Origin: Gammaproteobacteria bacterium
Lineage (GTDB): Bacteria > Pseudomonadota > Gammaproteobacteria > GCA-002705445 > GCA-002716945
Direction: 5' to 3'
Assembly: GCA_002716945.1 (NCBI GenBank)
Contig: PBCF01000002.1
Location: 316,776 to 380,775, forward strand
Length of the DNA: 64,000 nucleotides
Made by a program: the position numbers and the translations under genes. The notes below the pieces were generated by a model. That model had not been told where the DNA came from. It worked only from the letters and a program-made list of their open reading frames with translations, and ran no database searches. This document shows positions 5,388-42,412 of the stretch, piece by piece (the stretch's first letter is position 1; every line of letters starts with the position of its first letter).

Positions 5388-6714
5388 GAATTACCAGATA
5401 AATTATTTAAATTATTTAATAATAACCATCTTTTTTATAACATTTGGTATTCTATTTAAAAGCATTGGTTTGAAAATTCCATTTGTATTGTTACAATTTG
5501 GATTACTTGTTATTGCACTCTTATATTCTATTGTTTGTTTGTCATGCACAAAGATAGAAAACAATAATGTCTTAATATTTTATCTTTTTATTTTATACAT
5601 ATTTATTTATAACTTTTTATATGTATTTATCCGTTATAACGAAGTTGACAGTTCATTTTTTGATGTTTTATATTATGCTTTGAGTGAATTTAGACTTTCA
5701 ACAATAGGTTATTTTTTTCCATTAATATTTATACCACTTATTAATCATAATCTTGAAAAACTAGAGAATTCATTATTTATTATTATTAAAATAATTGTAA
5801 TTTATACATTATTAGAACAATTTATATCTTTGATTGGTTTTAGAAGTTTTTTTGAAAGTTTTTATATGAATGCCGGTATTATTCATAGTAATCAAATTGG
5901 AATGAAAAGTGGATTGGGATTATATAGAATTTGGGGATTAATTGGAACTCCATCACTCTTAGGGCTTTTTCATGTAATTACTTTATCTTATTTTTTATAC
6001 AAAAAAGATAGTACATGGGTACTATTAAGTATTCTTGCAGTAATCATGAGTACATCAAGAAGTGCATACCTGGCGTTATTAATTGTATTTTTTCTATATC
6101 TACTTATAAATCGTAAATATTTTATGCTTACAGTTATATTTGTTTCGTTATCATTATTATTATTTTCAATGTTTGAATATGTTCATTATTTAGAAGATAA
6201 GAATTCAATGGAACATATAGGATTACAAAAATTTATTTGGGGTATTGAAGGATATTTTTTACTATTATTTAAAGAGATAGATTATATAGGTACAGATGCT
6301 TCAATTTATGTAGAATTACAACGTGGTGATCTGATAATGCTTATAGATTATTTTTCAAACAATCCAATGGAAATTCTTTTTGGTAAAGGAATAACATATA
6401 TGTTTATTCATTCAAATATTCTAAATTTAACACCTTTTTCACAACACGTTCCCATTGGTGGAGATTATTATATTTTGACTTTTTTTGAACAATACGGAAT
6501 AGTTGGATTGATATTATTAATATCTACTTATATTATTTTTCCTTTCATTAATCTGATAAAAAGCAAAAATTATCTAAATTTTATTCCTATTATGTTTTTT
6601 GTTAGTTTGATGCATTATCCACCCCAACATGTTAAAATCTTAATGATATTTGTTGGATATGCTGTTTGGAAAATATATTTTTTAAAGAATGATCAAGATA
6701 AAGAATATACATAA
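5374..6714 (+). CDS. O-antigen polymerase-like (Wzy) membrane protein
   Basis: Multi-TM protein with a large periplasmic loop, in a polysaccharide cluster. Confidence 0.65.
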   Translation: MLIIKNYQINYLNYLIITIFFITFGILFKSIGLKIPFVLLQFGLLVIALLYSIVCLSCTKIENNNVLIFYLFILYIFIYNFLYVFIRYNEVDSSFFDVLYYALSEFRLSTIGYFFPLIFIPLINHNLEKLENSLFIIIKIIVIYTLLEQFISLIGFRSFFESFYMNAGIIHSNQIGMKSGLGLYRIWGLIGTPSLLGLFHVITLSYFLYKKDSTWVLLSILAVIMSTSRSAYLALLIVFFLYLLINRKYFMLTVIFVSLSLLLFSMFEYVHYLEDKNSMEHIGLQKFIWGIEGYFLLLFKEIDYIGTDASIYVELQRGDLIMLIDYFSNNPMEILFGKGITYMFIHSNILNLTPFSQHVPIGGDYYILTFFEQYGIVGLILLISTYIIFPFINLIKSKNYLNFIPIMFFVSLMHYPPQHVKILMIFVGYAVWKIYFLKNDQDKEYT

Positions 6715-6767
6715 ATTATTACACTATAGATAATAATAAAATATGATTTAGATAATTAAAGAGACTA

Positions 6768-14052: not shown

Positions 14053-15032
14053 AAATATTAATAACAGGTGGATTAGGATTTGTTGGAAGTAATTTAGTAG
14101 AATATCTATTAAAGTATAAAAATATAAAGAAAATTATCATAGTTGATAACTTCTCATCTTCGTCAATTCAATATATAGAAAAATTTACTAAATATAAATT
14201 CTTTAAATCATATAATCATTACAAAAAATCTATATCTAAAGTAGAAATTATTAAAGCAAATATAAATAATTTTAATATAGCTAAAAAAATTACAAAAAAC
14301 ATTGACTGTATAATTCATCTAGCAGCAGAATCTGGTATAGACAAATCTATTACAGATCCATTAAATGCTTTTAATGTTAATGTTGTTGGTACATTTAATT
14401 ACCTTGAAGCAGCTAGAATAAATAAAGTTAAACAATTTATTTTGGCTTCTAGTGGAGCAGTATTTGGTAATCAAAAACCACCATTTAAAGAAATATATGA
14501 AAGAAATCCAATATCACCATATGGGTCAAGCAAACTAACAGCTGAAACTTTTTGTCAAACATATGGTATGACGTTTAAAATACAAACAACAATTCTTAGA
14601 TTTAGCAATGCTTATGGAAAATATTCTAAACATAAAAATAGTGTAATAGCTAAATTTATTAATAATATTATAAATAGTAAACAGATTGTAATAAACGGCA
14701 ATGGCAAGATAACAAGAGATTATATATATGTTGAAGATATTTGTTCAGCTATTTATAAATGTTTACAAAATAAGAAAAAATCTACTATTTACCATGTATC
14801 AACAAATAAAGAAACGTCATTAAATGATTTAATAAAAAAAATAGAGCATACATTTAATATAATATTAAATTCCCCGTTACAGATTAAAAAAAAATATGGA
14901 AAAAATCGTTTGGGTGATATGAAAAGTAATTCTCAGTCAAATAATAAAATTAAAAAAGAAATGAACTGGAGTCCTAAAACTAACCTTAATCAAGGTTTAC
15001 TAAAGACCTTAGAATGGTTTATATTAAATTAA
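14043..15032 (+). CDS. NAD-dependent sugar-nucleotide epimerase (GalE/WbpP-like)
   Basis: 'ITGGLGFVGSNLVEYLL', 'HLAAESGIDKSI', 'YGSSKLTAE'. Confidence 0.8.
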   Translation: MEMKILITGGLGFVGSNLVEYLLKYKNIKKIIIVDNFSSSSIQYIEKFTKYKFFKSYNHYKKSISKVEIIKANINNFNIAKKITKNIDCIIHLAAESGIDKSITDPLNAFNVNVVGTFNYLEAARINKVKQFILASSGAVFGNQKPPFKEIYERNPISPYGSSKLTAETFCQTYGMTFKIQTTILRFSNAYGKYSKHKNSVIAKFINNIINSKQIVINGNGKITRDYIYVEDICSAIYKCLQNKKKSTIYHVSTNKETSLNDLIKKIEHTFNIILNSPLQIKKKYGKNRLGDMKSNSQSNNKIKKEMNWSPKTNLNQGLLKTLEWFILN

Positions 15033-15041
15033 TAAAATTCA

Positions 15042-16166
15042 TTGAATAATAAAAATAAAACAATCACATTAGTATCAAATAATTACTGGACATTATATAA
15101 ATTTAGATATGATGTAATAGAAATGTTTGTAAAAAAAGGATATAAAGTTAATCTTATTGCCCACAAGGATAAGTATCATCTGAATTTTGATTCAGAAAGA
15201 ATAAATAAATATTTCATACCAGTAGAAGTAAGAAGCACAAATATATTAACTGAGCTAAAAACTTTTATATCTTTATATAATATTTATAAAGATCTTAAAA
15301 CTGATATTATTATACATTTTACTATTAAACCTAATATTTATGGTTCTATCCTGGCACGTTATTTTAAGATAAAATCTATTTCATTTATAACAGGTGTTGG
15401 CTATATCTTTACTTCTAAAAAATATTTCTTAAGAAAAATTATTGCTTTATTATATAGATATTCACTCAAAAATAACTATGAAGTATGGTTTACAAATAAT
15501 AGTGATAAAATGCTTTTTTTAAAAAATAAGATAATAGATAAATCTCAAAAAACTGATATAGTCCCAGGAGCAGGTATTAATTTTTGTGATACTTTAAATA
15601 AGAACATTAAAAAGGATAAAAGTAATAAAATTAAATTTTTAATGATATCAAGAGTAGTCAAGGATAAAGGTGTTCTAGAATTTATTAAGACTGCACAACA
15701 TTTTAAATCACAAGCAAAGTTGGAGTTTACTCTTATTGGATCATACAATAAAGATATAACTGGAAGTATTGATCATAATATTTTACAAGAAGCAATAAAT
15801 AATAAAACTATAACTTATTATGATTATCAAGATAATATTTTAGAATATATAGAACAATCAACATGTATTGTTCAACCATCTTATCGTGAAGGAATATCAA
15901 CAATACTTCTTGAATCTGCTTCATTAAAAAAACCTATTATAACAACAGATGTCCCTGGATGTATTGATGTTATTCCTGATAATAACTATGGAATAATATG
16001 TAAATCAAAAGATTATAAGTCATTAATATTAGCAATTGAAAAATTTTTAACTTTAACTACAGATCAAATAGATTCTATGGTTAATAATACATATAAATAT
16101 GTAAAATCAAACTTTAATAGAAAAGATATACTAAAAAAATATGAATATATTATTAGCAATTGTTAG
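15042..16166 (+). CDS. Glycosyltransferase family 4-like
   Basis: TTG start; 'FLMISRVVKDKGVLEFI', 'VQPSYREGISTILLESASLKKPIITTDVPGC'. Confidence 0.85.
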   Translation: MNNKNKTITLVSNNYWTLYKFRYDVIEMFVKKGYKVNLIAHKDKYHLNFDSERINKYFIPVEVRSTNILTELKTFISLYNIYKDLKTDIIIHFTIKPNIYGSILARYFKIKSISFITGVGYIFTSKKYFLRKIIALLYRYSLKNNYEVWFTNNSDKMLFLKNKIIDKSQKTDIVPGAGINFCDTLNKNIKKDKSNKIKFLMISRVVKDKGVLEFIKTAQHFKSQAKLEFTLIGSYNKDITGSIDHNILQEAINNKTITYYDYQDNILEYIEQSTCIVQPSYREGISTILLESASLKKPIITTDVPGCIDVIPDNNYGIICKSKDYKSLILAIEKFLTLTTDQIDSMVNNTYKYVKSNFNRKDILKKYEYIISNC

Positions 16167-22174: not shown

Positions 22175-23534
22175 AAACTTTATTGTAAAAAAAACAGACA
22201 CAATTTTAACAGCACTTGAAAAAATTGAAAAAAATCATATGGGTGCAATTTTTATTGAAGATAAGTCTAAAATAATTGGAATAGCAACCGATGGTGATAT
22301 TAGAAGAGCTTTAATGAAAAAAAGTGATATGAGTCAGCAAATAAGCAAAATTATAAATAAAAAATATGTATATCTTTATGAAAAAGATGCTACTAAAGAA
22401 CATATTCTAAAGTTATTGGATACAAGAATTAAAATAATTCCAATATTAGATAATCAACATAAATTATTATCTATTGTTACTGAAAAGAATATAAATTGGA
22501 ATGAAAATGAAAAAATTATTTCAAAATCTAAATCACCAGTAAGAATTAGTTTTGCTGGTGGTGGTACAGATTTAACAACATATTTTTATGAAGAATCTGG
22601 TATAGTATTAAATGCTACAATTAATAAATTTACTCATGCTGTACTCGAAAAAAGAGATGATAATAAAATTCAAATATATTCAAATGATTTAAATAAAAAA
22701 ATAACTTTTAAAAATATTCAAGAAATTAAAATAAATGGGGAAATGGATTTAATCAAGTCGGTTATATTAAAATTAGAACCAAATTTTGGATTTAACCTTG
22801 TAACATATAGTGATGTACCACCAGGTTCAGGGTTAGGAGGTTCGGCAGTTCTTTTAAGTACAATAATTGGTGTATTCAATAATTTTCGTGAAAATAAATT
22901 TAATGATTATGAAATTGCTGAATTAGCATTTCATGCTGAACGTGTAGTACTTGAATTGTCAGGAGGTTGGCAGGATCAATATGCCACAGTTTTTGGAGGT
23001 TTTAACTATATAGAATTTAAAAATAATGAAAATATTGTTAATCCTTTAAGAATTACAGATGATATTAAAAGTGAATTAGAAGATTCATTAATATTATGTT
23101 ATAGCGGAATTAATCATGATTCAGCAAAGATCCATGATGATCAAAAAAAACAAATGAAAAATAAAAAGCAAAAAGAATTTGCTACAAAATCAAAAGAGAT
23201 TGCTTATCAAATGAAATCAAGATTACTTAAAGGGAAATTAGATGATTTTGGAGAACTACTGGGTAAAGCTTGGAAAATTAAAAAGAAATTTTCATCAAAA
23301 ATAACTACACCATTCTTAGATGAAATTTATGATTATGCTATAGAAAACGGCGCATTAGGAGGTAAATTATTAGGAGCAGGCAATGGGGGATATTTTTTAT
23401 TTTATGTTCCAACTCAAAATAAACTTAACCTAATAAATTCTTTAAAAAACAAAGGTTTATCAATAGAAACTTTTACTTTTGATAATGTAGGACTTAGATC
23501 TTGGATAACAAAAAGAAAACATGATCATAGATAA
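22158..23534 (+). CDS. Tandem CBS domains fused to GHMP-family sugar kinase (HddA-like)
   Basis: N-terminal 'MGAIFIEDKSKIIGIATDGDIRRAL' CBS pair; 'KSPVRISFAGGGTDL', 'VPPGSGLGGSAV', 'GKLLGAGNGGYFLFY' GHMP motifs. In-frame ATG at 22158 preferred over 22116. Confidence 0.85.
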   Translation: MNMKNKNFIVKKTDTILTALEKIEKNHMGAIFIEDKSKIIGIATDGDIRRALMKKSDMSQQISKIINKKYVYLYEKDATKEHILKLLDTRIKIIPILDNQHKLLSIVTEKNINWNENEKIISKSKSPVRISFAGGGTDLTTYFYEESGIVLNATINKFTHAVLEKRDDNKIQIYSNDLNKKITFKNIQEIKINGEMDLIKSVILKLEPNFGFNLVTYSDVPPGSGLGGSAVLLSTIIGVFNNFRENKFNDYEIAELAFHAERVVLELSGGWQDQYATVFGGFNYIEFKNNENIVNPLRITDDIKSELEDSLILCYSGINHDSAKIHDDQKKQMKNKKQKEFATKSKEIAYQMKSRLLKGKLDDFGELLGKAWKIKKKFSSKITTPFLDEIYDYAIENGALGGKLLGAGNGGYFLFYVPTQNKLNLINSLKNKGLSIETFTFDNVGLRSWITKRKHDHR

Positions 23535-25407
23535 ATACAAAATTGGAACAGCACATATATTTATCATTGCTGAAATAGGCATGAACCATAATGGTAATTA
23601 TAAAAATGCTACAAAATTAATTGATCAAGCCATCAAAGCAGGAGCAGATTGTGTAAAATTTCAAATGAGAAATTTAAATGAATTGTATAGTAAATCAGCA
23701 TTGGATATAACATCGACTGATTTAGGAACACAATACACATTAGGTTTGTTAAAGAAATTTGAATTAAGTTTTGATGATTATAAACGTTTATCAGAATATT
23801 CAAGAAAAAAAGGTATTTTATTTTTATGTACACCTTGGGATAAATCTAGTGTTGATAAACTTGAAAAATTAAATGTCAAAGCATATAAAATTGCATCAGC
23901 TGATTTAACAAATATTGATCTTATTGATTATATAATATCTAAGAAAAAACCAATTATTTTATCTACCGGAATGAGTAATGAGGATGAAATTAAAGATACA
24001 ATAAAATTTCTAAAAACTAAAAAGGCAGTGTTTTCTATTTTACATTGTAATTCAACATATCCAGCTCCTTTAAAAGATATAAATCTAAATTATATAAAAA
24101 ATTTAGAGAAATATAATGTACCTGTTGGTTATTCTGGACACGAAAGAGGGATTGCTACATCTTTAGGGGCAGTAGCAATAGGAGCTAAAATAATAGAACG
24201 ACATATAACTTTAGACAGAAATATGGAAGGACCAGATCATGCTGCGAGTCTTGAATTTGATGATTTTGAATTATTAGTTAAGGGAATCAGAGAGCTTCAA
24301 AAATCTATAGGTGTTCAAAACAAAAGGTCAATGACACAAGGTGAAATGATTAATAGAGAGAACTTATCTAAAAGTATTTTTGCAAAAAAATCAATTAAAA
24401 AAGGAGAGCAAATTAAAAAAGATATGTTAGAAATTAAAAGTCCAGGGCAAGGACTATCACCACAATATTTAACAAAAATAATTGGGAAAAAACCCTGTAA
24501 AGATATAGAAAAAAATAAACCTATTTTCATTACAGATATATCAGGAAAAATAAATTCAAAAAAGATATATAAATTTAATAGAAAGTGGGGTATACCTGTT
24601 AGGTTCCATGATTTAAAAACTTTATTAAATAATTTAAAACCTTCGTTAGTTGAATTCCACTTAAGTTTTAATGATTTGAACGAGGATATTTCTAAATTAA
24701 TCGCAAAAAAATATAATTGTGAATTTGTAGTCCATGCTCCAGAATTATTTAAAAATGACCATTTATTGGATTTATGTACGCCAAATAAAAAGTATAGAAA
24801 TGAATCAATAAATAATTTACAAAATGTTATTGACTTAACTGTTAAATTAAAAAATTATTTTATTAATATAAATAAACCTAAAATTATTATTAATGCAGGC
24901 GGTTTCACAAGAGATGATTTTCTAGATCCGGCTTACAAAACTGAATATTACCAAAATTTAATAAATTCATTGAATAAATTAAAGTCCAATGAAGTTGAAA
25001 TAATTCCACAAAATATGGCTCCTTTTCCATGGCATTTTGGGGGACAAAGGTATCAAAATTTGTTAGTTTTACCCGAAGAAATAATAAATTTTTGTAAATC
25101 TACTGGTATGAGAATATGCCATGATATTTCACATTCTTATATGACTTGCAAAAAATATAAACTCGATCATATTGATTTTACAGAAAAAATAGCACCACTA
25201 GTAACTCATTATCACATTGCTGATGCAATTGGCATTGACGGTGAAGGATTACAAATAGGTATTGGGGATATAAACTTTAAGAAAATATTACAAATAATTA
25301 ATAAATATTCACCAGAAGCATCTTTTATACCGGAAGTTTGGCAAGGACATAAAAATAATGGTGAAGGATTTTGGATTGCTTTCAAAAAATTGGAAAATAA
25401 ACTTTGA
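23521..25407 (+). CDS. NeuB/LegI-type nonulosonic acid synthase with SAF domain fused to a C-terminal TIM-barrel (xylose isomerase/AP endonuclease 2-like) domain
   Basis: 'IIAEIGMNHNGNYKNATKLIDQAIKAGADCVKFQ', 'LHCNSTYPAP', 'GYSGHERGIATSLGAVAIGAKIIERHITLDRNMEGPDHAASLE'; C-terminal 'HYHIADAIGIDGEGLQIGIGDINF'. Confidence 0.88.
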   Translation: MIIDKYKIGTAHIFIIAEIGMNHNGNYKNATKLIDQAIKAGADCVKFQMRNLNELYSKSALDITSTDLGTQYTLGLLKKFELSFDDYKRLSEYSRKKGILFLCTPWDKSSVDKLEKLNVKAYKIASADLTNIDLIDYIISKKKPIILSTGMSNEDEIKDTIKFLKTKKAVFSILHCNSTYPAPLKDINLNYIKNLEKYNVPVGYSGHERGIATSLGAVAIGAKIIERHITLDRNMEGPDHAASLEFDDFELLVKGIRELQKSIGVQNKRSMTQGEMINRENLSKSIFAKKSIKKGEQIKKDMLEIKSPGQGLSPQYLTKIIGKKPCKDIEKNKPIFITDISGKINSKKIYKFNRKWGIPVRFHDLKTLLNNLKPSLVEFHLSFNDLNEDISKLIAKKYNCEFVVHAPELFKNDHLLDLCTPNKKYRNESINNLQNVIDLTVKLKNYFININKPKIIINAGGFTRDDFLDPAYKTEYYQNLINSLNKLKSNEVEIIPQNMAPFPWHFGGQRYQNLLVLPEEIINFCKSTGMRICHDISHSYMTCKKYKLDHIDFTEKIAPLVTHYHIADAIGIDGEGLQIGIGDINFKKILQIINKYSPEASFIPEVWQGHKNNGEGFWIAFKKLENKL

Positions 25408-26163: not shown

Positions 26164-26877
26164 ATGAATAAGAATGTTATTGCAATTATATTGGCAAGAG
26201 GTGGATCAAAAGGAATACCAAATAAAAATATATTAAATTTTTGCGGAAAACCATTAGTAGCATGGTCTGTCATTCAAGCTAAACTTACAAAAGAAATTGA
26301 TGATGTATATATAAGTTCTGATTCAGATAAAATTTTAGAAATAGCAGCAAACTATGGTGCAAAAAAAATTAAAAGACCAAATGAAATATCAGGTGATGAA
26401 GCAAAATCAGAAGAAGCAATATTGCATGCATTAAATATCATTGATAGAAACTGTGAATGTATAATTATGTTAGAGCCAACAGCTCCATTAAGACAACCAG
26501 ATGACTTATCAAACGCAATAAAGCTATTTTATAAAAATAAATGGGATTCAGCATTTTCAAGTGCTGAATTACAAGATTTTTTAATTTGGAAAAAAGATGA
26601 AAACAATAAACTAAAAGGGCTAAACTATGATTATAAAATACAAGAGCCTAGACAATTAAGAGAAACAGAATATGTAGAAAATGGTGCAATATATATGTTT
26701 AAGCCAGATATAATAATTAATGAATCAAATAGATTTGGCGGTGAAATTGGAATGATTCCCAATAAGTTTTGGCAGTCATTTGAAATAGATGAAAAAGAAG
26801 ATTGGGAGTTTTTAGAGTTAATATTTAATCATTATTTACTCAATGAATATAATAAACGAATGATAGGAAATAAATAA
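26164..26877 (+). CDS. Acylneuraminate/nonulosonate cytidylyltransferase
   Basis: 'AIILARGGSKGIPNKNILNFCGKPLVAWSVIQA', 'LEPTAPLRQPDD'. Confidence 0.9.
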   Translation: MNKNVIAIILARGGSKGIPNKNILNFCGKPLVAWSVIQAKLTKEIDDVYISSDSDKILEIAANYGAKKIKRPNEISGDEAKSEEAILHALNIIDRNCECIIMLEPTAPLRQPDDLSNAIKLFYKNKWDSAFSSAELQDFLIWKKDENNKLKGLNYDYKIQEPRQLRETEYVENGAIYMFKPDIIINESNRFGGEIGMIPNKFWQSFEIDEKEDWEFLELIFNHYLLNEYNKRMIGNK

Positions 26878-31332: not shown

Positions 31333-33153
31333 ATGAAATCTTTAATTCTTACAAAAAGATTGGTATTTCCATGGTTATATAGAAATTTTTTATTATTTGG
31401 AAGAAAATCGTATCTTAAAAACAAATCAAATCATACTGTAGTACAAGAAGATTTATTTATGGCTAAAAACTACAGAAATTGTGATCATGAAGCTTCATGC
31501 AGTGAAGATTATTTAATTAATAAGTTAACAGATAATAAAAATTTTAAATTTTTAATTGATTGGGCGGGTGAGAGATATACTAATTATGTTGTTGGTAAGC
31601 ATTTAATATTTGAAGCTAAAAAGATTTTTAAATCATTTAGATATGCTGAATTAATTAGTGAAAAATATACTTTAAAGAATAATGTATATCTTTACCCTGA
31701 TAATTTTGATATTTCTATATATAATATATTGAGACAAAAATTAACAAAAAAAATAAAACTTCCATATCTGTCATTAATTTATATGACTTTAAGAAGTGTG
31801 TTTAAGTCTGTATATTTTAATTTTAAAACATTATTATATCCTGAGTTTCTACTAATAAAATCCTGTCAAAGATCAAAGTTAGGGATCAACAAATATAAAT
31901 TTTGTATTCATATAGATGATGGATTGAAAGATCTGGCAATTCATCCACATGATTTATTTGTAATAAATAAAAATATTACTAAAAAAGATATATTATTTGT
32001 TAGTTTATCTAAAACAAAGCAAAAATGGATATCCCATTATTTAAAAAATAACTATAATGTTTTAGATATTAATAAAGTCAATAATTATATATCTAAATCT
32101 ATGTATTTTTCTAACATATACTGTAAATCATTTAAATTTAGATTTAAACTTTTTTGGCTTGGTATCAAATATCCTTGGCTATCATCTTCAATATTTAATA
32201 TTTTAAAACAAAAAATCTTATGGGATATATTTCACGAATTAATCAAAACAAAATGTATTATAAGAATTATGACAGCTGAAGATATAACAGCATCAGTCGT
32301 ACATAAATACAATAATGTGGACACGCTTTTTCTTTATTTATCAACAACAGAAAAAATAATACAATCTGATATAAAAAAAGGTAAGAGTAATGATCATGAT
32401 TATACTCATATGATATCAAAATACTCAGTTAGCAACGTTGTTTCGAATAATTGGTTAAAAAAACTTGAAAATAATATTGATAAATATATTGATATAGGTC
32501 CATTATTTTCAGATTTAATACACGAGGCTTATAAAAACAAACAAATAATATTCAAGAAAATTAATATAACGAATAATAATCCTATAATTACTTTCCTTGA
32601 TCATACAGCAGGACACCATGGTGTAATGAATTTTAAAGCTTATAAAGATTTTCTAGAAAGCTTTCTAAAATTATCTAAAAAAAATTTAAATATAAATTAT
32701 ATATATAAGAGTAAAAAATCTATTTCATCCATGAAAGAATACTTTGATAATGATATTATTGACTTGATTGAGGTTATTCGTAGTCGCAATAATTGTTGGT
32801 ATGCTAATGACTATAAACTCAGTTCATATCAAATATGTGGAGTAGCAGATTTAATTGTTTCTGCACCAATGTCATCTGTAATATTTGAAGCATTCTGTGG
32901 TAATAAAAAAATAATTTCGTATGATAGTACATCAAAGTATAAAGATTTTGATTTTATTTTAAAAAAAGTTCCATATCTACACGCATATACTCATGAACAA
33001 TTAGAGAAATTAATTGATCATTGGCTCTTGCAAACAGATAATAATTATTTTAAAAATTATATGAATAAATATATTAAACCGCTGATTGGATTAAATTGTA
33101 ATAATCATGGTAAAATTAAACAATTTAATGAATTTTTAGAAAATATAAATTAA
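31333..33153 (+). CDS. Large surface-carbohydrate biosynthesis protein, unknown (possible GT-B-like)
   Basis: Intact 606-aa ORF in operon; C-terminal 'VADLIVSAPMSSVIFEAFCGNKKIISYDSTSKYKDF' resembles a GT-B donor region. Confidence 0.45.
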   Translation: MKSLILTKRLVFPWLYRNFLLFGRKSYLKNKSNHTVVQEDLFMAKNYRNCDHEASCSEDYLINKLTDNKNFKFLIDWAGERYTNYVVGKHLIFEAKKIFKSFRYAELISEKYTLKNNVYLYPDNFDISIYNILRQKLTKKIKLPYLSLIYMTLRSVFKSVYFNFKTLLYPEFLLIKSCQRSKLGINKYKFCIHIDDGLKDLAIHPHDLFVINKNITKKDILFVSLSKTKQKWISHYLKNNYNVLDINKVNNYISKSMYFSNIYCKSFKFRFKLFWLGIKYPWLSSSIFNILKQKILWDIFHELIKTKCIIRIMTAEDITASVVHKYNNVDTLFLYLSTTEKIIQSDIKKGKSNDHDYTHMISKYSVSNVVSNNWLKKLENNIDKYIDIGPLFSDLIHEAYKNKQIIFKKINITNNNPIITFLDHTAGHHGVMNFKAYKDFLESFLKLSKKNLNINYIYKSKKSISSMKEYFDNDIIDLIEVIRSRNNCWYANDYKLSSYQICGVADLIVSAPMSSVIFEAFCGNKKIISYDSTSKYKDFDFILKKVPYLHAYTHEQLEKLIDHWLLQTDNNYFKNYMNKYIKPLIGLNCNNHGKIKQFNEFLENIN

Positions 33154-33155
33154 AT

Positions 33156-33902
33156 ATGAATAATATTGAAACTTATAAAAATAAATATAAAAATAATGGT
33201 TATTTTATCGTAAAAGATGTTTTTGATAAAAATACTATCAACAAAGTTATATCTGAAATTGATGTAGCACAAGATGTGCAAAAATATACAGATAAAAAAG
33301 GAAATTTAAGAAGAATAGAGAGATTATATGACAAAGGGATCTATCTAAAAAAAATTAATTCATCTGTTCTTTCTATATTAAAAAAAATTTTTGATAAAGA
33401 TTTTACAATTTTTAAAGATAAATGTAATTCAAAACCACCTGGTGGCGAAGGTTTTTTTGCTCACTATGATGGTATATTCTTGTTTAAAAATAATAATGGT
33501 AAAAAAGAGAAGGGTTGGTATAAATATACTGATTTTTTTATTAATGTTTTAATAGCATTAGACGATTGTAATAAAGAAAATGGAACGATTGAAATCTCAA
33601 ATGCTCATTCTGGTGATTTTGATCAGCTTTTATTAAATACAAAACAAAATGGAACTCCAGATATACTAAATAATATTGAGCAAAGTATTGATTTTGAACC
33701 AATTGAACTAAAAGCTGGAGATTTAACAATATTTAGTAATACTTGTCCACATAGATCGAAAAAGAACGAATCCTCAGTTAATAGAAGAACGCTTTACTAC
33801 ACATATACATTACTAGATAAAGGTTCTTATTATCATGAGTATTTTATTGATAAGTCTCAAAGTAAAAATCTTACTAGCAAAAGTCTTAGCGGAGAATCAT
33901 AG
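33156..33902 (+). CDS. Phytanoyl-CoA dioxygenase (PhyH)-family Fe(II)/2OG oxygenase
   Basis: HxD 'FFAHYDGIF', distal His/Arg '[22 protein letters not shown]', '[18 protein letters not shown]'. Confidence 0.8.
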
Positions 33903-33903
33903 T

Positions 33904-35202
33904 ATGAAAAAAGTGTATGTAGCCATGAGTGCAGATATAGTTCATAAAGGTCACATTAATATTTTAAAAGAAGCTAATAAATTAGGTGAAGTTACTGTTG
34001 GATTATTAACAGATAAAGCAATTGCTAGTTTCAAAAGACTGCCATTTATGGAATATGAAAATAGAAAAAGTGTATTGGAGCAAATGACAATAGTCTCAAA
34101 AGTTATTCCACAGCACACTCATGACTATAAAGATAATTTATTACTTATAAAACCAGATTATGTAGTTCATGGTGATGATTGGAAAGATGGTTACCAAAGA
34201 AATGTTCGTCAGATAGTAATAGATACATTAGAAAAATGGGGTGGAAAACTAATTGAAGTACCTTACACAAAAGGAATATCATCAACACAACTCAATGCAG
34301 CTTTAAAAGAAGCTGGAACAACACCTAACATAAGATTGTCTATGTTAAAAAGACTTTTAGGTTCTAAACCGCTTATAAGATTAAACGAAGTTCATAACGG
34401 ATTATCAGGATTGATAACAGAAAAAACTACTGCACTCTATAAAGGAAAAGAGATTCAATTTGATGCTATGTGGTCAAGTAGTTTAACTGACTCTACCGCT
34501 AAAGGTAAACCTGATATTGAAGCAATAGATATGACATCGAGAATGCAAACTGTAAATGACATATTTGATGTTACAACCAAACCAATGATATTTGATGCAG
34601 ACACTGGTGGTAAAGCAGAACATTTTTGTTTTACTGTAAAATCATTAGAAAGACTAGGTGTGTCAGCTGTTGTGATTGAAGATAAAATTGGCTTAAAAAA
34701 GAATTCATTACTTGGAAATGATGTTAAACAGACACAAGACTCAATTGTAAATTTTCAAGAAAAAATTAAATCAGGTAAGTCATCTCAAGTAACTGAAGAT
34801 TTTATGATTATATCGCGAATAGAAAGTTTGATTGTAGGATCAGGAATTAATGATGCCTTAACAAGAGCAAAAGAATATATAGATGTTGGTTCAGATGCAA
34901 TTATGATTCATAGCAAAGACAACAAACCTGATGAAATTTTTAAATTTTGTGAGAAATTTCATGAATTAGAAAAAACAGTTCCGTTAATGGTTGTTCCTAC
35001 AAGTTTTAACAGTGTATTAGAAGAAGAATGGGAAAAAAGAGGTGTTAATATAGTATGCTATGCAAATCATATGTTAAGAAGTGCATACCCAGCCATGCTT
35101 CAAGTAGCTAAATCTATTCTAGAAAACGGGCGTTCATTAGAATCATCAAAGCAGTGTATTACATTAAAAGAAATTTTAGATTTAATACCAGGAACTAATT
35201 AA
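33904..35202 (+). CDS. pepM: Bifunctional cytidylyltransferase / phosphoenolpyruvate phosphomutase (Fom1-like architecture)
   Basis: N-terminal HxGH '[14 protein letters not shown]' and 'KGISSTQL'; PepM signature EDK-x5-NS as '[10 protein letters not shown]' (34678-34707). Start set to ATG 33904, just after the upstream stop, rather than 33835. Confidence 0.92.
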
Positions 35203-36332
35203 TGATAAATCCAGAAAATTTTTATAAAAGCCTTATAAAAGAAGATATTAGTTTTTTTACTGGAGTACCTGATTCACTATTAAAAAATTTATGTTTTTAT
35301 ATATCAGATATAGAAAATAATAAAAATCATATAATAGCAACCAATGAAGGTAATGCACTATCATTAGGGATTGGATATTATCTATCAACAAAAAAAATAC
35401 CTTTAATTTATATGCAAAATTCTGGATTAGGAAATATTATTAATCCACTTTTATCTCTTGCAGATAAAGATGTTTACTCCATTCCAATGATTTTATTAAT
35501 AGGATGGAGAGGTGAGCCTGGAGTCAAAGATGAACCTCAGCATAAAAAACAAGGCAGAATTACACTTAAACTACTCAAAACAATGGAAGTTCCTTATTAC
35601 ATCTTAAGTAAGACAAATAATAATTCAGACGCAGACTCTATAATAAAAAAAATTAAAAATAAAATTTTAAAAACCAACAAACCTCATGCAATTGTTATAA
35701 AACAAGATTCATTCAAAGACTATAAACCAAAAAAAACTATATCTAAAAAACTATCATTAACAAGAGATGAATCGATCAATATCATAATGTCTTGTATAGA
35801 TGATAAGGATATTGTTGTTTCTACAACTGGATATACATCAAGAGAATTATTTGAATATAGGAAAAAATCATCAAAAAATATTAAAAATGACTTTTTAGTA
35901 GTTGGAGGTATGGGTCATGCAAGTCAAATTGCATTAGGAATGGCATTATATAAAAAGAATAAAAATGTTTATTGTTTAGATGGTGATGGTGCTGTACTAA
36001 TGCATATGGGTTCTTTAACTATTAATTCAAAATCACAATGTAAAAATTTTAAACACATAGTTTTTAATAATGGGTGCCATGAATCAGTAGGGGGGCAGCC
36101 AACGCTTGGCTTTCATATAAATTTACAAAAAATAGCATCAGGATCTGGATACACATTAGTTTTAAAGGCTAAAACCAAGAACGAATTAAAAAAATGTCTA
36201 AAAAAATTAAAAGATTATAATAAACCCGCATTTCTTGAGATTATGGTAAAAAAAGGAACTAGAAAAAATCTAGGACGACCAACAACAACACCAATTCAAA
36301 ATAAAAATATTTTAATGAATAATATTAAATGA
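35202..36332 (+). CDS. Phosphonopyruvate decarboxylase (TPP-dependent)
   Basis: 'FFTGVPDSLLKNLC', 'YMQNSGLGNIINPLLSLAD', 'GWRGEPGVKDEPQHKKQGRITLKLL', 'GDGAVLMHMGSL'. Confidence 0.94.
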   Translation: MINPENFYKSLIKEDISFFTGVPDSLLKNLCFYISDIENNKNHIIATNEGNALSLGIGYYLSTKKIPLIYMQNSGLGNIINPLLSLADKDVYSIPMILLIGWRGEPGVKDEPQHKKQGRITLKLLKTMEVPYYILSKTNNNSDADSIIKKIKNKILKTNKPHAIVIKQDSFKDYKPKKTISKKLSLTRDESINIIMSCIDDKDIVVSTTGYTSRELFEYRKKSSKNIKNDFLVVGGMGHASQIALGMALYKKNKNVYCLDGDGAVLMHMGSLTINSKSQCKNFKHIVFNNGCHESVGGQPTLGFHINLQKIASGSGYTLVLKAKTKNELKKCLKKLKDYNKPAFLEIMVKKGTRKNLGRPTTTPIQNKNILMNNIK

Positions 36333-37468
36333 TACAAAAAATATTTATAGGACCAGGATCAATAGATAGTATTGATACCATACTTGATAATTTAAAAGCA
36401 AAGACTGCATTGTTAATTACTGGAAAGAACTCATACAATTCACATAGTATTGATCAAAAATTATCATCTACTTTATTAAATATGAACATTACTAAATTTA
36501 ATGATTTTAGTGTAAATCCAAAAATTACAGATGCAGTCAAAGGTATAAAATTATTAGAATTAATAAAACCGGATATTATTATAGCAATTGGCGGGGGAAG
36601 TGTAATAGACATGGCTAAACAAATTAACATACTGTCAGCACAAAATTTAGATGATATTGAAAATATAGTTCAAAATCAGAATCTCATACAAAAACCTGGT
36701 ATTCCGTTAGTTGCTATCCCAACAACAACAGGGACGGGTAGTGAGTCAACTCATTTTGCTGTCACATATATTAATAAAAAAAAATATTCTTTAGCACATA
36801 AATATATGCTTCCAAGTTATTGTATAGTTGATCCAATATTATCTTATACAATGCCTCCTAAATTAACCGCATCTTGCGGAATGGATGCATTAACACAATC
36901 AGTTGAATCATATTGGTCTGTGAATTCTACGGAAGAAAGTAAAAGATATGCGAGAGAATCAATATTATTAATTATTAAAAATATCATAAATGCTGTAAGT
37001 GGATCAGAAGAAGCTAAAAATGAAATGGCACTAGCAGCTCATTATTCAGGTAAAGCAATTAATATTTCTAAAACTACAGCGCCACATGCAATTTCATATC
37101 CTCTGAGCATGTACTTTAATATTTCACATGGTCATGCCGTTGCGTTAACACTTGGATATTTTTTTACAATTAACTCCACTCTTGAAAATGTAGATATTAT
37201 AGATAAAAGAGGAAAAGAATATTTATCTTCTAATATGTATGAACTGTTTAATTTATTTTCAAAGAAAAATGGAGATGACTGTAAAGATTTTTGGTATAAA
37301 TTAATGCATCAAATTAATTTAGAAACCAATATATCTAAATTAGGAGTAAGAACTAATGAAGATATTGATAAAATTTTAGAGAACGTCGATCCGAATCGAA
37401 TAAGAAATAATCCTGTTCAGATAGATAAAAAAATAATAAAAAATATATTAAAAGACTTACAAGTTTAA
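36329..37468 (+). CDS. Iron-containing alcohol dehydrogenase, predicted phosphonoacetaldehyde reductase
   Basis: 'IAIGGGSVIDMAKQIN', 'IPTTTGTGSESTHFAV', 'HAISYPLSMYFNISHGHAVAL'; position directly after Ppd. Confidence 0.88.
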   Translation: MIQKIFIGPGSIDSIDTILDNLKAKTALLITGKNSYNSHSIDQKLSSTLLNMNITKFNDFSVNPKITDAVKGIKLLELIKPDIIIAIGGGSVIDMAKQINILSAQNLDDIENIVQNQNLIQKPGIPLVAIPTTTGTGSESTHFAVTYINKKKYSLAHKYMLPSYCIVDPILSYTMPPKLTASCGMDALTQSVESYWSVNSTEESKRYARESILLIIKNIINAVSGSEEAKNEMALAAHYSGKAINISKTTAPHAISYPLSMYFNISHGHAVALTLGYFFTINSTLENVDIIDKRGKEYLSSNMYELFNLFSKKNGDDCKDFWYKLMHQINLETNISKLGVRTNEDIDKILENVDPNRIRNNPVQIDKKIIKNILKDLQV

Positions 37469-37480
37469 AAATTTGTTGAT

Positions 37481-38170
37481 ATGGAAGATCTCAACACATC
37501 ATTTTCAAATGCATTAATATTAATTTTTCAATTAGATAGTAATTATATTGAGATTATCGCTTTATCATTACAAGTTTCTTTATCTGCGGTTTTTATTTCT
37601 TGTTTAATTTCAATGCCATTAGCAGCATTATTGAGTATAAAAAACTTCTCAGGAAAGTCTATTATATTAATAATTTTAAATGCTTTCATGGCATTACCAC
37701 CAGTTGTAGTCGGTTTGTTTTTATATATATTATTATCAGCTAAAGGAATACTATCAATCTATGAACTTCTCTATACACCTATTGCAATGTTAATAGCACA
37801 AATAATAATTGTAACACCAATAATTACATCTCTATCTAAAGAATCTATTGATATATATTATGTGCAGTATAAAGATTATCTAAGATCATTGAATGCTTCG
37901 TATTATAATACAGCTACAACATTATTATGGGAAAGTAGATATATTTTAACAATTAATACTTTAGCTGGATTAGGGAGAGCACTTGCTGAAGTTGGTGCAG
38001 TTATGATTGTTGGAGGTAATATTGCTCATCTTACTAGAGTTATGACGACAAGCATTGTATTAGAAACGTCTAGAGGAGATTTATCTTTAGCTTTAAGTTT
38101 AGGAGTAACATTAATATTTATCTCTATTGGTATAAATAGTTTAGTATATTTAATAAAAAAATCTAATTAG
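37481..38170 (+). CDS. tupB: ABC transporter permease, TupB-like (tungstate)
   Basis: 'MALPPVVVGLFLYILLS...', 'LAEVGAVMIVGGNIAHLTRVMTTSIVLETSRGDLSLALSLG' typical TupB. Confidence 0.82.
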   Translation: MEDLNTSFSNALILIFQLDSNYIEIIALSLQVSLSAVFISCLISMPLAALLSIKNFSGKSIILIILNAFMALPPVVVGLFLYILLSAKGILSIYELLYTPIAMLIAQIIIVTPIITSLSKESIDIYYVQYKDYLRSLNASYYNTATTLLWESRYILTINTLAGLGRALAEVGAVMIVGGNIAHLTRVMTTSIVLETSRGDLSLALSLGVTLIFISIGINSLVYLIKKSN

Positions 38171-38173
38171 CTT

Positions 38174-38806
38174 ATGACTAAAATAATTAATTTTAAAAAT
38201 GTTACCTATACAATCAATAATAAAGTTATTATTGACAATATTAATCTAAATATAAAAAAAGATGGTTTGTTGGTTTTGTTAGGTAATAATGGCGCAGGGA
38301 AAACAACAATTTTAAAACTTATGGCAGGTATATTAATACCAACAAGTGGAACAATTAATTTATCAGATATGTATACCAAGCAAAACAATAGAATAGGGTT
38401 TGTTTTTCAAAAAACAATTTTTTTAGATAGAACTGTTGAAGAAAACTTATTTCATGCATTATATTGCTCAATGAATGCCAAAAATAAAGAAAATTATATC
38501 AAATTAATACAAAAAGAATTAGATCAAATTAATATGTGTCATTTATTACATGAAAAAGCTAAAAATTTATCGATCGGAGAGCAACAAATCGTTTCAATGA
38601 TAAGATCGATTATCATCAATCCATGTATACTATTTTGTGATGAACCTACAAGTAATTTGGACGATAATTATAAAAAAATTGTTGAAAATATTATTATTAA
38701 TATGTCAAATAAAATAAAAGTTATCATGATTACTCAAGATATAGACCAAGCTAATAGGCTTGGTGAGGAAAAAATAGTAATAAAAAATGGAAAATTATTA
38801 AATTAA
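38174..38806 (+). CDS. tupC: ABC transporter ATP-binding protein, TupC-like
   Basis: 'LLGNNGAGKTTILKLMAGIL', 'LSIGEQQIVSMIRSIIINPCILFCDEPTSNLD'. Confidence 0.8.
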   Translation: MTKIINFKNVTYTINNKVIIDNINLNIKKDGLLVLLGNNGAGKTTILKLMAGILIPTSGTINLSDMYTKQNNRIGFVFQKTIFLDRTVEENLFHALYCSMNAKNKENYIKLIQKELDQINMCHLLHEKAKNLSIGEQQIVSMIRSIIINPCILFCDEPTSNLDDNYKKIVENIIINMSNKIKVIMITQDIDQANRLGEEKIVIKNGKLLN

Positions 38807-38832: not shown

Positions 38833-40350
38833 ATGAAAAAAGCACGCGTACTACTGGTAAGTCCTAATTTAAAAGGTATCGTTGATGGAATTACAAGGAT
38901 ACAACCTACTATGGGATTATTATTAATTGCTCCTATATTAGAAAAAGCAGGGCATACTGTAAAAATATATGATTCTGCTCTTGATGGGTGGAATACCAGA
39001 AAAGTATTAGATGCTAATGAAAACATTGTAATGATAGGTCATTCCGATGATGAAATAGCAAAAGTCATCTCGGATTTTTCCCCAGATATAGTGGCTGTGT
39101 CAGTTTTATTTTCTAATTTAATTGAATCTGCTCATAATATTGCAAAAATATCAAAACAAGTTAATAGCAAAGCACCTGTGATTCTAGGTGGTAATCATAT
39201 CTCTAGTTCTGTGATAGATTATCAACACTCTATGAATGATTTGACTTCAAAATTATCAACAGTTTTAGAGGATTTAGAAGACGATAATATTGATATGGCT
39301 ATGACGGGAGAAGGCGAATTTGCATTTGCAGATTTAGTTAATGCTTTAATAAATAAAAAAGATTATTCAAATATTCCAGGGTTAGTAAAAAAAATTGGTT
39401 ATAGAAAATATTTGATAAATCAACCTGCAAGGTTAGAAGATTTGAATTTATTACCCCAACCAGCTAGACATCTTGTAAATATGGAAGGATATTTTGATAT
39501 TGGCGCATTCCAATCAACGAAAACTCAATCGGATAGAGTTTTAAGCATAATGTGTTCAAGAGGATGTCCGGAAAAATGTACTTTCTGTTCCACTCCTCAA
39601 ATGTGGGGACAAAAAGTTAGGTGGAGAAGCACTGAACATATAATGAATGAAGTTATTAATGATTCAAAAGCATATAATATTGGTGAACTTCATATACAAG
39701 ATGATTCATTAACTGCTGATAAAAAAAATCTATATGCATTATGTGATGCTTTAGAAAAAGTAGGGCTTCCTTGGTGTACGCCTAATGGAACAAAAGTAAA
39801 CTATCATTTTAAAAAGCATGATGAAATGTATAAGAAAATGCATGATTCTGGTTGCTATCAACTTACATTAGCTTGCGAAAGTGGTGTTCAACGTGTATTA
39901 GATAATGTAATTAATAAACGATTACCACTTGAGACTATTTATCCTTCCATAGAACAAGCTAAAAAAGCTGGAATGTTAGTTCATACGTATTGGATCTTAG
40001 GATATCCAGGTGAAACATTTGAAGAAATGCAAACTACAATAGATTTTGCAATGAACAGTGGGGCAGATAGTTTTACATTTTCTATACTCAGCCCATTACC
40101 AGGCACCCCAATATACAGACAAGTTGTAAACCAAAATCTATGGTGGAGTGGGAGAGGATTAGATGATGTTATTCTTCAAAGAGAATCATTAATTAAAGTA
40201 GATGGGTTTTCATCTCCATATGACTTTGAAAAATTTGTGAGAGAAACAAATAAGAAGGCAAACTTACTTCTTAAGCAGAATGATCCAGAAAGATTTAAAT
40301 ACAAATATGGTTCTGATGCTGACGAGACTTCCTTAATAAAACAATCATAA
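38833..40350 (+). CDS. B12-binding-domain radical SAM protein (class B-type, candidate Fom3-like methylase)
   Basis: N-terminal B12-binding Rossmann-like domain; CxxxCxxC 'CPEKCTFC' at 39565-39588. Confidence 0.88.
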   Translation: MKKARVLLVSPNLKGIVDGITRIQPTMGLLLIAPILEKAGHTVKIYDSALDGWNTRKVLDANENIVMIGHSDDEIAKVISDFSPDIVAVSVLFSNLIESAHNIAKISKQVNSKAPVILGGNHISSSVIDYQHSMNDLTSKLSTVLEDLEDDNIDMAMTGEGEFAFADLVNALINKKDYSNIPGLVKKIGYRKYLINQPARLEDLNLLPQPARHLVNMEGYFDIGAFQSTKTQSDRVLSIMCSRGCPEKCTFCSTPQMWGQKVRWRSTEHIMNEVINDSKAYNIGELHIQDDSLTADKKNLYALCDALEKVGLPWCTPNGTKVNYHFKKHDEMYKKMHDSGCYQLTLACESGVQRVLDNVINKRLPLETIYPSIEQAKKAGMLVHTYWILGYPGETFEEMQTTIDFAMNSGADSFTFSILSPLPGTPIYRQVVNQNLWWSGRGLDDVILQRESLIKVDGFSSPYDFEKFVRETNKKANLLLKQNDPERFKYKYGSDADETSLIKQS

Positions 40351-40371: not shown

Positions 40372-41592
40372 ATGAGATTTTTAATAAAATCACTACTTAA
40401 TATAATTTTTTTTCCTTTAAAATTCATTATACCTAAAGGAAAAGTGATTACAGTAAGTACAAGTAGCCCGCATATTTATTGCGGTAATACAAGATATCTA
40501 TACGAATATTTATCAAAAAATTGCGAGTATAAAGTATTTTGGCATACTGAGAATGAGAGTATTAAACAATATCTAGATAATCTTAATTTTAAATATATTT
40601 CTATATCAAAACCAATTCACTATATATGGACTTTATTAAGAACAAAAATTGTAATTAATGATGGTGATGCTTATATTAATACATTTAAGATTCTTGATAA
40701 TAACAGCACGATAAAGATTTGTACTTTTCATGGTAGCGCAGCTAAAGCCGCGTTATACACTCATCAAGGGATAATTTCGGTAGATGAACAAATTGATAGA
40801 ATAAATAAGTTTAATTTTGTTAATTTTCCATCTAAATATACTTCTATTACATACAGAAATATGTTTAATTTACCACAAAATAAAGTAATTTCATTTGGCT
40901 TTCCACGATGCGATCAATTTTTTAATTATAATTATACACAAGAAGCATATAAGCAAAAAAAAATATCAAAATTACTTAATCCCAATATCAACAATAAAAC
41001 TAAAATTATTTTATATACTCCAACTTGGAGACCATATAAATATAATTTACCTATTATTGATATGACAGACTTCAATGCTGAATCTATGAATTTGTGGCTT
41101 GAAGATAATAATGCATGTTTTTTTTATACAGTTCATTCAGGAGTAAAACCCTCTAAATATATTAAAGATTATTCAAGAATTTATTATATTAATTTAAACA
41201 ATCATCCCTTATTCGATATAAATACATTAATGATGGAAACTGATTTATTATTAAATGATTATTCTGCTACAAGCACAGATTATTCACTTCTGAATAAAGC
41301 TCACTTATTTTTCATGCCTGATTACAAAAACTATTGGGGGAATGAAGATATTACTTTTATAAAACAATCAGACAATTCTGATTCATATGATAGTTATAGA
41401 AAATCTCTACCTGGTGATGAAGTAGATGATTTTTCTTCATTAATAGAAAAATTTGAATATATTTTCAGTAATTATGAAAAATATGTAAATAAATACAATT
41501 CTAAATCACAAAAGCTTTTATCTGATTTTTACAGTATTAATAATCGTAATTCATGTGTTAAATTTAAAAAATTTATTCAAAATATTATCTGA
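40372..41592 (+). CDS. CDP-glycerol glycerophosphotransferase (TagB/TagF)-family protein
   Basis: 'ICTFHGSAAKAAL', 'ILYTPTWRPY', 'METDLLLNDYSATSTDYSLLNKAHLFFMPDYKNY'. Confidence 0.85.
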   Translation: MRFLIKSLLNIIFFPLKFIIPKGKVITVSTSSPHIYCGNTRYLYEYLSKNCEYKVFWHTENESIKQYLDNLNFKYISISKPIHYIWTLLRTKIVINDGDAYINTFKILDNNSTIKICTFHGSAAKAALYTHQGIISVDEQIDRINKFNFVNFPSKYTSITYRNMFNLPQNKVISFGFPRCDQFFNYNYTQEAYKQKKISKLLNPNINNKTKIILYTPTWRPYKYNLPIIDMTDFNAESMNLWLEDNNACFFYTVHSGVKPSKYIKDYSRIYYINLNNHPLFDINTLMMETDLLLNDYSATSTDYSLLNKAHLFFMPDYKNYWGNEDITFIKQSDNSDSYDSYRKSLPGDEVDDFSSLIEKFEYIFSNYEKYVNKYNSKSQKLLSDFYSINNRNSCVKFKKFIQNII

Positions 41593-41599
41593 TATTTAA

Positions 41600-42412
41600 A
41601 TGAAAAATATTTTATATATAGTTATCTTTATGATTTTAGTGGTACCCCAAGTTTATGGACGTTCCAATGATACCATCGTCATACAATCAACTACTTCAAC
41701 TAGAGATTCTGGATTTTATGATTATATATTACCAATTTTTAAAAATAAATTTAGTCTTGATGCATACGTTGTAGCTGTTGGTACTGGGCTTGCAATAAAA
41801 AATGCAATGAATTGTGATGCTGATATTTTGATTACCCACGCAATAACTCTTGAACATGATTTTATTAGCAAAGGTTTTGGCGTTACGAGAAATAACTTAA
41901 TGTATAATGATTTTGTCTTAATAGGACCACAAAATAATCCAGCTAAGATATCATCATCAGATTCTGTAACCGAAGCTTTTATAAAAATAGCAAAATCTCA
42001 AAATACTTTTATTTCACGCGCTGATGATAGTGGTACACATATTTCTGAAAAAAATATATGGAATAAGACTAAACTTCACTCTGATAAATTTACTATTGAA
42101 TGGTATTTAGAAAGTGGACAGGGTATGGGGCAAACGCTAAATATAGCTATTGCTAAAAATGCATATACATATACAGATAGAGCAACATGGCTTAAATTCA
42201 AAAATAAACAAAATCATAGAATAATATATCAAAACGATCCTTTGTTGGTTAATCAATACGGCATTATTACTATAAATCCTCAAAGATGTCCTAATATTAA
42301 CCATAAAGGCGCAAAAACACTTCATGATTGGCTTATTTCTAAAGATGGGCAGAATTACATTGCTGAATTTACACTGAATAATGAGCAATTATTTATTCCG
42401 AATTATAAATAA
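41600..42412 (+). CDS. tupA: Tungstate-type ABC transporter substrate-binding protein
   Basis: Signal peptide; 'QSTTSTRDSGFYDYILPIFKNKF', 'AVGTGLAIKNAMNCDADILITHA', 'GVTRNNLMYNDFVLIGP'. Confidence 0.85.
   Translation: MKNILYIVIFMILVVPQVYGRSNDTIVIQSTTSTRDSGFYDYILPIFKNKFSLDAYVVAVGTGLAIKNAMNCDADILITHAITLEHDFISKGFGVTRNNLMYNDFVLIGPQNNPAKISSSDSVTEAFIKIAKSQNTFISRADDSGTHISEKNIWNKTKLHSDKFTIEWYLESGQGMGQTLNIAIAKNAYTYTDRATWLKFKNKQNHRIIYQNDPLLVNQYGIITINPQRCPNINHKGAKTLHDWLISKDGQNYIAEFTLNNEQLFIPNYK

Follow-up and report, generated by a model that had tools for sequence, protein, structure and literature searches.

What does a B12-binding radical SAM enzyme do in a gene cluster that combines phosphonate genes with genes for a surface polysaccharide? 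The gene in question belongs to a gammaproteobacterium with a 1.09 Mb genome and lies in a 64,000-nt stretch of contig PBCF01000002.1 (GCA_002716945.1; positions 316,776 to 380,775, forward strand). We refer to this stretch as the window, and its numbering is used for all coordinates given without a locus label. A sequence-only reading of the window had proposed, by analogy with Fom3, that the enzyme methylates HEP-CMP. The gene and its parts are as follows.

38833..40350, + strand: B12-binding radical SAM protein; intact open reading frame, ATG to stop, 505 amino acids
38881..39204, + strand: cobalamin-binding domain PF02310, residues 17-124 (Pfam 49.0 bits, cut-off 32.1)
39553..40050, + strand: Radical SAM domain PF04055, residues 241-406 (Pfam 63.4 bits, cut-off 29.5)
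39565..39588, + strand: CPEKCTFC, [4Fe-4S] cluster motif, residues 245-252

The N-terminal cobalamin domain and the CPEKCTFC motif had both been recognized from the sequence alone, and both were borne out: each Pfam model scored over its cut-off, and the three cysteines of the motif were invariant in 18 of 18 aligned relatives. An AlphaFold2 model of the protein (mean pLDDT, 87; pTM, 0.88; low confidence in the cluster loop, residues 245 to 260) matched the solved B12/radical SAM structures of AprD4, TsrM, MgmA, TokK, CysS, and OxsB over both domains, with E values of 1e-14 to 1e-20. The protein thus has the features of class B (cobalamin-binding) radical SAM enzymes, namely, an N-terminal cobalamin domain, a CxxxCxxC radical SAM domain, and the matching fold. 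We regard it as a putative class B methyltransferase on the basis of its sequence and modeled structure, a fold that AprD4-like nonmethylases also have. AprD4, a radical SAM enzyme that dehydrates its substrate instead of methylating it, was the top solved structure both by sequence profile and by fold, and one alternative is that the enzyme acts on a phosphonate intermediate by radical SAM chemistry other than methylation, such as dehydration in the manner of AprD4. However, the margin of AprD4 over the methylases TsrM, MgmA, TokK, and CysS was small, and the linkage to B12 uptake described below fits a methylcobalamin enzyme; we therefore consider nonmethylating chemistry highly improbable.

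A predicted CMP-phosphonate gene set within a polysaccharide locus

The genes surrounding the radical SAM gene are listed below.

23521-25407: NeuB
26164-26877: CMP-NeuA-like gene
31333..33153, + strand: PFTS-motif polysaccharide biosynthesis-like protein (TIGR04417, 45.7 bits, below cut-off)
33156..33902, + strand: PhyH-type Fe/2-oxoglutarate dioxygenase (PF05721)
33904..35202, + strand: cytidylyltransferase-PEP mutase fusion, Fom1-like (TIGR02320, 388 bits, cut-off 319.6; PF01467, CTP_transf_like)
35202..36332, + strand: phosphonopyruvate decarboxylase (TIGR03297, 474.7 bits, cut-off 312.5)
36329..37468, + strand: iron-containing alcohol dehydrogenase, predicted phosphonoacetaldehyde reductase, HEP-forming (PF00465/PF25137; TIGR03405, 161.7 bits, below cut-off)
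37481..38170, + strand: TupB-like ABC permease (NF038017, 212 bits, cut-off 100; NF041773, 137.8 bits, cut-off 320)
38174..38806, + strand: ABC ATPase in a TupC-like position (PF00005)
40372..41592, + strand: CDP-glycerol-type glycerophosphotransferase, candidate transferase of a CMP-activated phosphonate to glycan (PF04464, 124 bits, cut-off 22.1)
41600..42412, + strand: TupA-like oxyanion-binding protein (NF041772, 220 bits, cut-off 400)

The radical SAM gene belongs to a co-directional run, with the PhyH, fusion, decarboxylase, dehydrogenase, permease, and ATPase genes upstream and the glycerophosphotransferase and TupA-like genes downstream. The Fom1-like fusion and HEP pathway that the sequence-only reading had placed beside it held up on closer inspection, as the fusion and the decarboxylase scored over curated cut-offs and an iron-containing alcohol dehydrogenase accompanies them. 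The start of the fusion was set at the ATG at 33904, after the preceding stop, and not at 33835. The fusion retains HKGH and ISSTQ, as well as [10 protein letters not shown], the PEP mutase motif given as EDKxxxxxNS in PMC6697681, and it is 57% identical to the fusion of locus L023; a homolog of the dehydrogenase is present in locus L015. Thus, a HEP-CMP gene set (cytidylyltransferase-PEP mutase, decarboxylase, and dehydrogenase) is predicted to adjoin the radical SAM gene, and Fom1-, Fom2-, FomC-, and Fom3-like activities are all four predicted within 6.5 kb. A surface polysaccharide locus extends from position 443 to ~30 kb of the window and includes a Wzz-type chain-length protein, glycosyltransferases, epimerases, NeuB, and the CMP-NeuA-like gene. 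The predicted small-molecule product is thus CMP-HEP, formed within a polysaccharide locus. As the sequence-only reading had also maintained, no FomD-type (DUF402) hydrolase and no Fom4-type epoxidase was found among the window open reading frames scanned with Pfam.

Two further features of the locus were observed. The 628-amino-acid protein at 23521-25407 fuses a NeuB domain, a SAF domain, and a xylose-isomerase-like TIM barrel. In addition, the radical SAM and glycerophosphotransferase genes interrupt a tungstate-type ABC transporter (37481-38806 and 41600-42412), an arrangement not seen in the SAR11 loci described below.

These genes suggest a route in which the PEP mutase domain would convert PEP to phosphonopyruvate, the decarboxylase would convert this to phosphonoacetaldehyde, the iron-containing dehydrogenase would form 2-hydroxyethylphosphonate, and the fused cytidylyltransferase would yield CMP-HEP. 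The radical SAM enzyme would then abstract a hydrogen at C2, adjacent to the hydroxyl, and add a methyl group from methylcobalamin to give CMP-2-hydroxypropylphosphonate. Since there is no sign of a CMP-releasing or epoxide-making enzyme among the window genes scanned, the CMP ester would most likely serve as the donor for the CDP-glycerol-type transferase (40372), which would decorate the surface polysaccharide; further hydroxylation of the phosphonate may be the role of the PhyH oxygenase. We assign to the window enzyme a putative role as a radical SAM methyltransferase that uses methylcobalamin and acts on a CMP-activated phosphonate, converting CMP-HEP to CMP-2-hydroxypropylphosphonate, an assignment that falls just short of what we would call probable. 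It is the best single option for the window's organism and coincides with the function guessed in the sequence-only reading. A broader assignment, that the enzyme methylates some phosphonate intermediate, stands on firmer ground, and we consider it probable.

A marine clade and its phosphonate genes

Relatives of the window protein were gathered by a scan of GTDB genome contigs. Nineteen of them (L005 to L023) share 50 to 71% identity with the window protein; by title, 15 are from Pelagibacteraceae, one is from Rhodobacteraceae, one is from Rhodospirillales, and two are from metagenome-assembled genomes (MAGs) titled Parcubacteria and Nanoarchaeota, which may be mis-binned. Together with the window protein, these relatives, mostly from SAR11 single-cell genomes, form one clade of 20 sequences (SH-aLRT, 100), in which the window is nested in a 15-row set whose other rows are SAR11 or SAR11-like (support, 99). 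Below the clade, four relatives (L024 to L027) show 39 to 43% identity and are next in the tree (24 rows; support, 100), after which identity drops to 32% or less. The radical SAM gene was absent from the same-family genomes searched and was thus probably acquired horizontally. The assignment of the host to Gammaproteobacteria is probable from a protein of a same-class genome, which grouped with a Chromatiaceae protein in the tree, and from the order of the fab and dnaK genes. No relatives were found in the scanned viral contigs, and plasmids yielded no ortholog, with a best match of 30 to 31% identity. Three tandem B12-binding radical SAM-type genes were seen in one of the four more distant relatives, an Omnitrophota MAG (L024:265-4917).

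PEP mutase exceeded the curated cut-off in 14 of the 19 clade genomes. One further genome scored just below it (313.6 bits), one had a partial match (173.5 bits), and three lacked a detected PEP mutase; these three and the borderline and partial cases are all incomplete single-cell or metagenome assemblies. Within SAR11, PEP mutase was present in 13/15 clade genomes compared to 24/193 other genomes (Fisher's exact test ignoring kinship among genomes, p ~2e-9). The comparison set was drawn from the family, where 27/196 genomes had PEP mutase, and three clade genomes were removed from it. In eight loci, PEP mutase lies within the same stretch as the radical SAM gene, and the PhyH-type family recurs close to the radical SAM gene in eight loci other than the window. 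Among the 61 loci of more distant relatives (L024 to L084), none had a match to the window PEP mutase, decarboxylase, or alcohol dehydrogenase within 10 kb. The tie to a CMP-phosphonate pathway and envelope polysaccharide genes, previously proposed for the window, therefore holds statistically across many SAR11 genomes.

A recurrent SAR11 cassette (L008, L009, and L012) consists of the fusion, the decarboxylase, a PhnW-like aminotransferase, a stand-alone cytidylyltransferase, an APS-kinase-like gene, the radical SAM gene, and PhyH. The PhnW-like aminotransferase retains the PLP lysine (SSCKG) and is encoded close to the radical SAM gene in eight SAR11 loci (L005, L008, L009, L012, L013, L015, L016, and L019); its presence points to a pathway of the AEP type there and not of the HEP type. 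Because it accompanies most SAR11 orthologs whose loci are long enough, the enzymes may naturally act on CMP-AEP or on some other shared intermediate. The same chemistry would then act natively on CMP-2-aminoethylphosphonate, or on an intermediate common to AEP and HEP, giving, for example, CMP-2-aminopropylphosphonate, and the window enzyme would either tolerate CMP-HEP or receive an amino substrate by way of another aminotransferase. The stand-alone second cytidylyltransferase found in most of these loci is consistent with such a substrate, as is the alignment, in which the window protein keeps the clade's conserved residues. However, an iron-containing dehydrogenase occurs instead of or besides the aminotransferase in the window, L015, and L023; no PhnW-like aminotransferase was found in the stretch seen of the window and L023; and the L008 protein scored 60 bits on TIGR03301, far under the cut-off of 360.8, the aminotransferase activity itself being putative. 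On balance, we consider an amino substrate somewhat unlikely and retain CMP-HEP as the favored candidate substrate in the window.

Other features of the SAR11 loci bear on acceptors and donors. A CDP-alcohol phosphatidyltransferase-like gene in L011, L015, and L016 suggests a lipid acceptor in those loci. An APS-kinase-like gene adjoins the radical SAM gene in six loci (L008:9473-9994, L005:13449-13961, L009:9468-9992, L012:7501-8040, L013:4760-5293, and L023:3992-4600), and in all of these except L023 the stand-alone cytidylyltransferase also adjoins it. By analogy with Campylobacter Cj1415-Cj1418, which lead to CDP-phosphoramidate 3'-phosphate (PMC11800397), the APS-kinase-like proteins may make a 3'-phosphorylated CMP-phosphonate donor. 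Locus L015 contains two distinct cytidylyltransferase-PEP mutase fusions (5462-6763 and 14795-16105) in addition to an aminotransferase and an iron-containing dehydrogenase.

Relation to Fom3, PhpK, and CMP-sugar loci

Fom3 methylates CMP-HEP at C2 (PMC8158854, PMC8992657), and this substrate is produced by the N-terminal domain of Fom1 (PMC6697681). Like the window protein, Fom3 has an N-terminal cobalamin domain and a CxxxCxxC radical SAM domain, and its gene likewise has as neighbors a fusion of cytidylyltransferase and PEP mutase together with decarboxylase and alcohol dehydrogenase genes, from which HEP-CMP would be made. The differences are that no FomD or Fom4 was seen among the scanned window genes, that the window gene sits in a polysaccharide locus, and that most clade orthologs lie beside an aminotransferase. 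As a lead, we compared a putative Fom3 sequence (UniProt Q56184; Streptomyces, fosfomycin biosynthesis; cysteines at 282, 286, and 289); searches of plasmids, of 398 genomes from a single actinobacterial phylum, and of the PDB found no copy of it. The window protein is ~35% identical to this sequence over 459 amino acids. In the tree, the putative Fom3 sequence fell outside the 24-row clade, and a topology joining it to the marine clade to the exclusion of L024 to L027 was rejected (AU p, 0.0013). By this comparison, the window clade appears nearer to relatives with CMP-sugar neighbors than to the putative Fom3: L025 to L027 lie beside CMP-sugar-type cytidylyltransferases, glycosyltransferases, or NeuB, and none has a PEP mutase. 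Because these closer relatives (39 to 43%) adjoin CMP-sugar genes without PEP mutase, the window protein is probably not an ortholog of Fom3, as judged from sequence comparison. The analogy drawn in the sequence-only reading thus stands in its tie to a CMP-phosphonate pathway and in the Fom1/Fom2/FomC/Fom3-like set of genes but not as an identity with Fom3; a Fom3-like function is plausible, and membership in the Fom3 group is not supported.

These CMP-sugar neighbors raise the alternative that the methyl acceptor is a CMP-activated nonulosonate (a sugar acid) or a glycan belonging to the same polysaccharide, with the phosphonate genes as fellow travelers in exchangeable islands. In line with this, the window has NeuB and a CMP-NeuA-like gene, NeuB recurs in L005, L008, L012, L021, L025, and L027, and CMP-sugar synthetase and glycosyltransferase-cytidylyltransferase genes flank the nearest relatives outside the clade. 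A sugar substrate does not, however, account well for the strong genome-level enrichment of PEP mutase, and in most long loci the phosphonate genes are immediate neighbors, whereas NeuB is usually several kilobases off. We consider this reading unlikely. The two sets of neighbors fit a wider group of enzymes that would recognize CMP-activated acids, within which the marine clade would use CMP-phosphonates.

Among NCBIfam models, the best match to the window protein was NF038361, the Sden_1168 family (224.6 bits, cut-off 575, with a nearly full-length alignment), followed by HpnJ, ApyD, and PhpK (TIGR04479, 110.9 bits, cut-off 600). NF038361 is named as a P-methyltransferase, and PhpK enzymes, which like the window protein are B12-binding radical SAM proteins, serve phosphorus natural products. 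An enzyme of this kind would act on a reduced phosphorus atom, and PhpK requires a P-H substrate. Both scores fall far below the cut-offs, however, and we rejected membership in either family; no H-phosphinate route gene was recognized among the annotated neighbors. No protein in 369 genomes of the same class exceeded the NF038361 cut-off. Fom3 is a C-methylase, yet the putative Fom3 sequence scored 300.6 bits on NF038361, higher than the window protein, and 56.8 bits on the PhpK model. The name of NF038361 is therefore no guide to whether carbon or phosphorus is methylated, and we did not take it literally. Although the Sden_1168 family is the best-scoring curated model, P-methylation is not indicated by the window neighborhood, and we consider it very unlikely.

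Cobalamin uptake and a proposed mobile cassette

Rfam AdoCbl-II riboswitches (81 to 100 bits, gathering threshold 36.5) were found near the radical SAM gene, upstream of BtuB-like TonB receptors, in five clade loci.

L007:11584-11671: AdoCbl-II riboswitch
L011:6486-6566: AdoCbl-II riboswitch
L012:15295-15373: AdoCbl-II riboswitch
L016:1006-1086: AdoCbl-II riboswitch
L021:14475-14556: AdoCbl-II riboswitch

In four of these loci, the receptor is followed by a DUF6580 membrane protein, which may be part of B12 uptake. The two receptors tested had TIGR01779 (B12 receptor) as their best model, at 137 and 140 bits (below the cut-off of 599.7). In L016, the riboswitch, receptor, DUF6580, radical SAM, and cytidylyltransferase-PEP mutase genes are contiguous on one strand. 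The AdoCbl-II riboswitch was detected in 11/15 SAR11 clade genomes compared to 39/193 others (p, 4e-5), with stricter filters in the search of the larger set. We consider the links of the clade to phosphonates and to cobalamin strong. These riboswitches also bear on the open question of whether btuB is regulated by B12 in SAR11 (PMC9296465).

The window's own genome has a comparable arrangement at a distance from the phosphonate cluster: an element resembling AdoCbl-II (35.4 bits, cut-off 36.5) is followed by genes encoding a TonB receptor and a DUF6580 protein.

L088:1213-3622 (own genome C4, near 66.7-69.1 kb): TonB receptor and DUF6580 genes with the AdoCbl-II-like element upstream

The radical SAM protein is the only PF02310 match in this genome, and QueG was not found there; thus, the radical SAM enzyme may be the principal cobalamin-using protein of its host.

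We tentatively propose, with slightly less assurance than for the CMP-HEP reaction, that a mobile cassette dependent on cobalamin, and distinct from Fom3, is common to SAR11 and at least one gammaproteobacterium with a small genome. The cassette would supply surface glycans or lipids with C-methylated CMP-phosphonates and would often carry its own B12-riboswitch uptake module. Three findings add to the sequence-only reading: the linkage to B12 uptake and riboswitches, the SAR11 clade, and the cassettes of the AEP type. Phosphonates make up a large share of the ocean's reduced phosphorus and are a source of marine methane. If the cassette reading is true, part of ocean phosphonate production would be B12 dependent and would yield C-methylated phosphonates not yet sought in seawater. 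Should a B12-dependent methylase indeed belong to SAR11 pathways, phosphonate diversity would hinge on a scarce vitamin, dissolved organic matter could be searched for 2-hydroxypropyl- or 2-aminopropylphosphonate, and Fom3-type chemistry would have a second, nonantibiotic setting. Phosphonate production genes are reported in 15% of surface bacterioplankton (PMC8931226). Pnt-type surface phosphonate pathways with nucleotidyl activation (PMC6697681) and marine phosphonate glycan clusters (PMC8931226) share with the loci studied here a CTP-activated phosphonate, a cytidylyltransferase-PEP mutase fusion, surrounding glycan genes, and marine bacterioplankton hosts, while neither a cobalamin radical SAM methylase nor a B12-uptake module is described for such clusters in the passages of those papers examined.

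Two of the clade loci contain a second, different B12-binding radical SAM protein near the first (L006:3523-4968 and L011:13515-14960). The best models for these second proteins are ApyD, HpnJ, and PhpK, and aminotransferase- and epimerase-like genes lie nearby.
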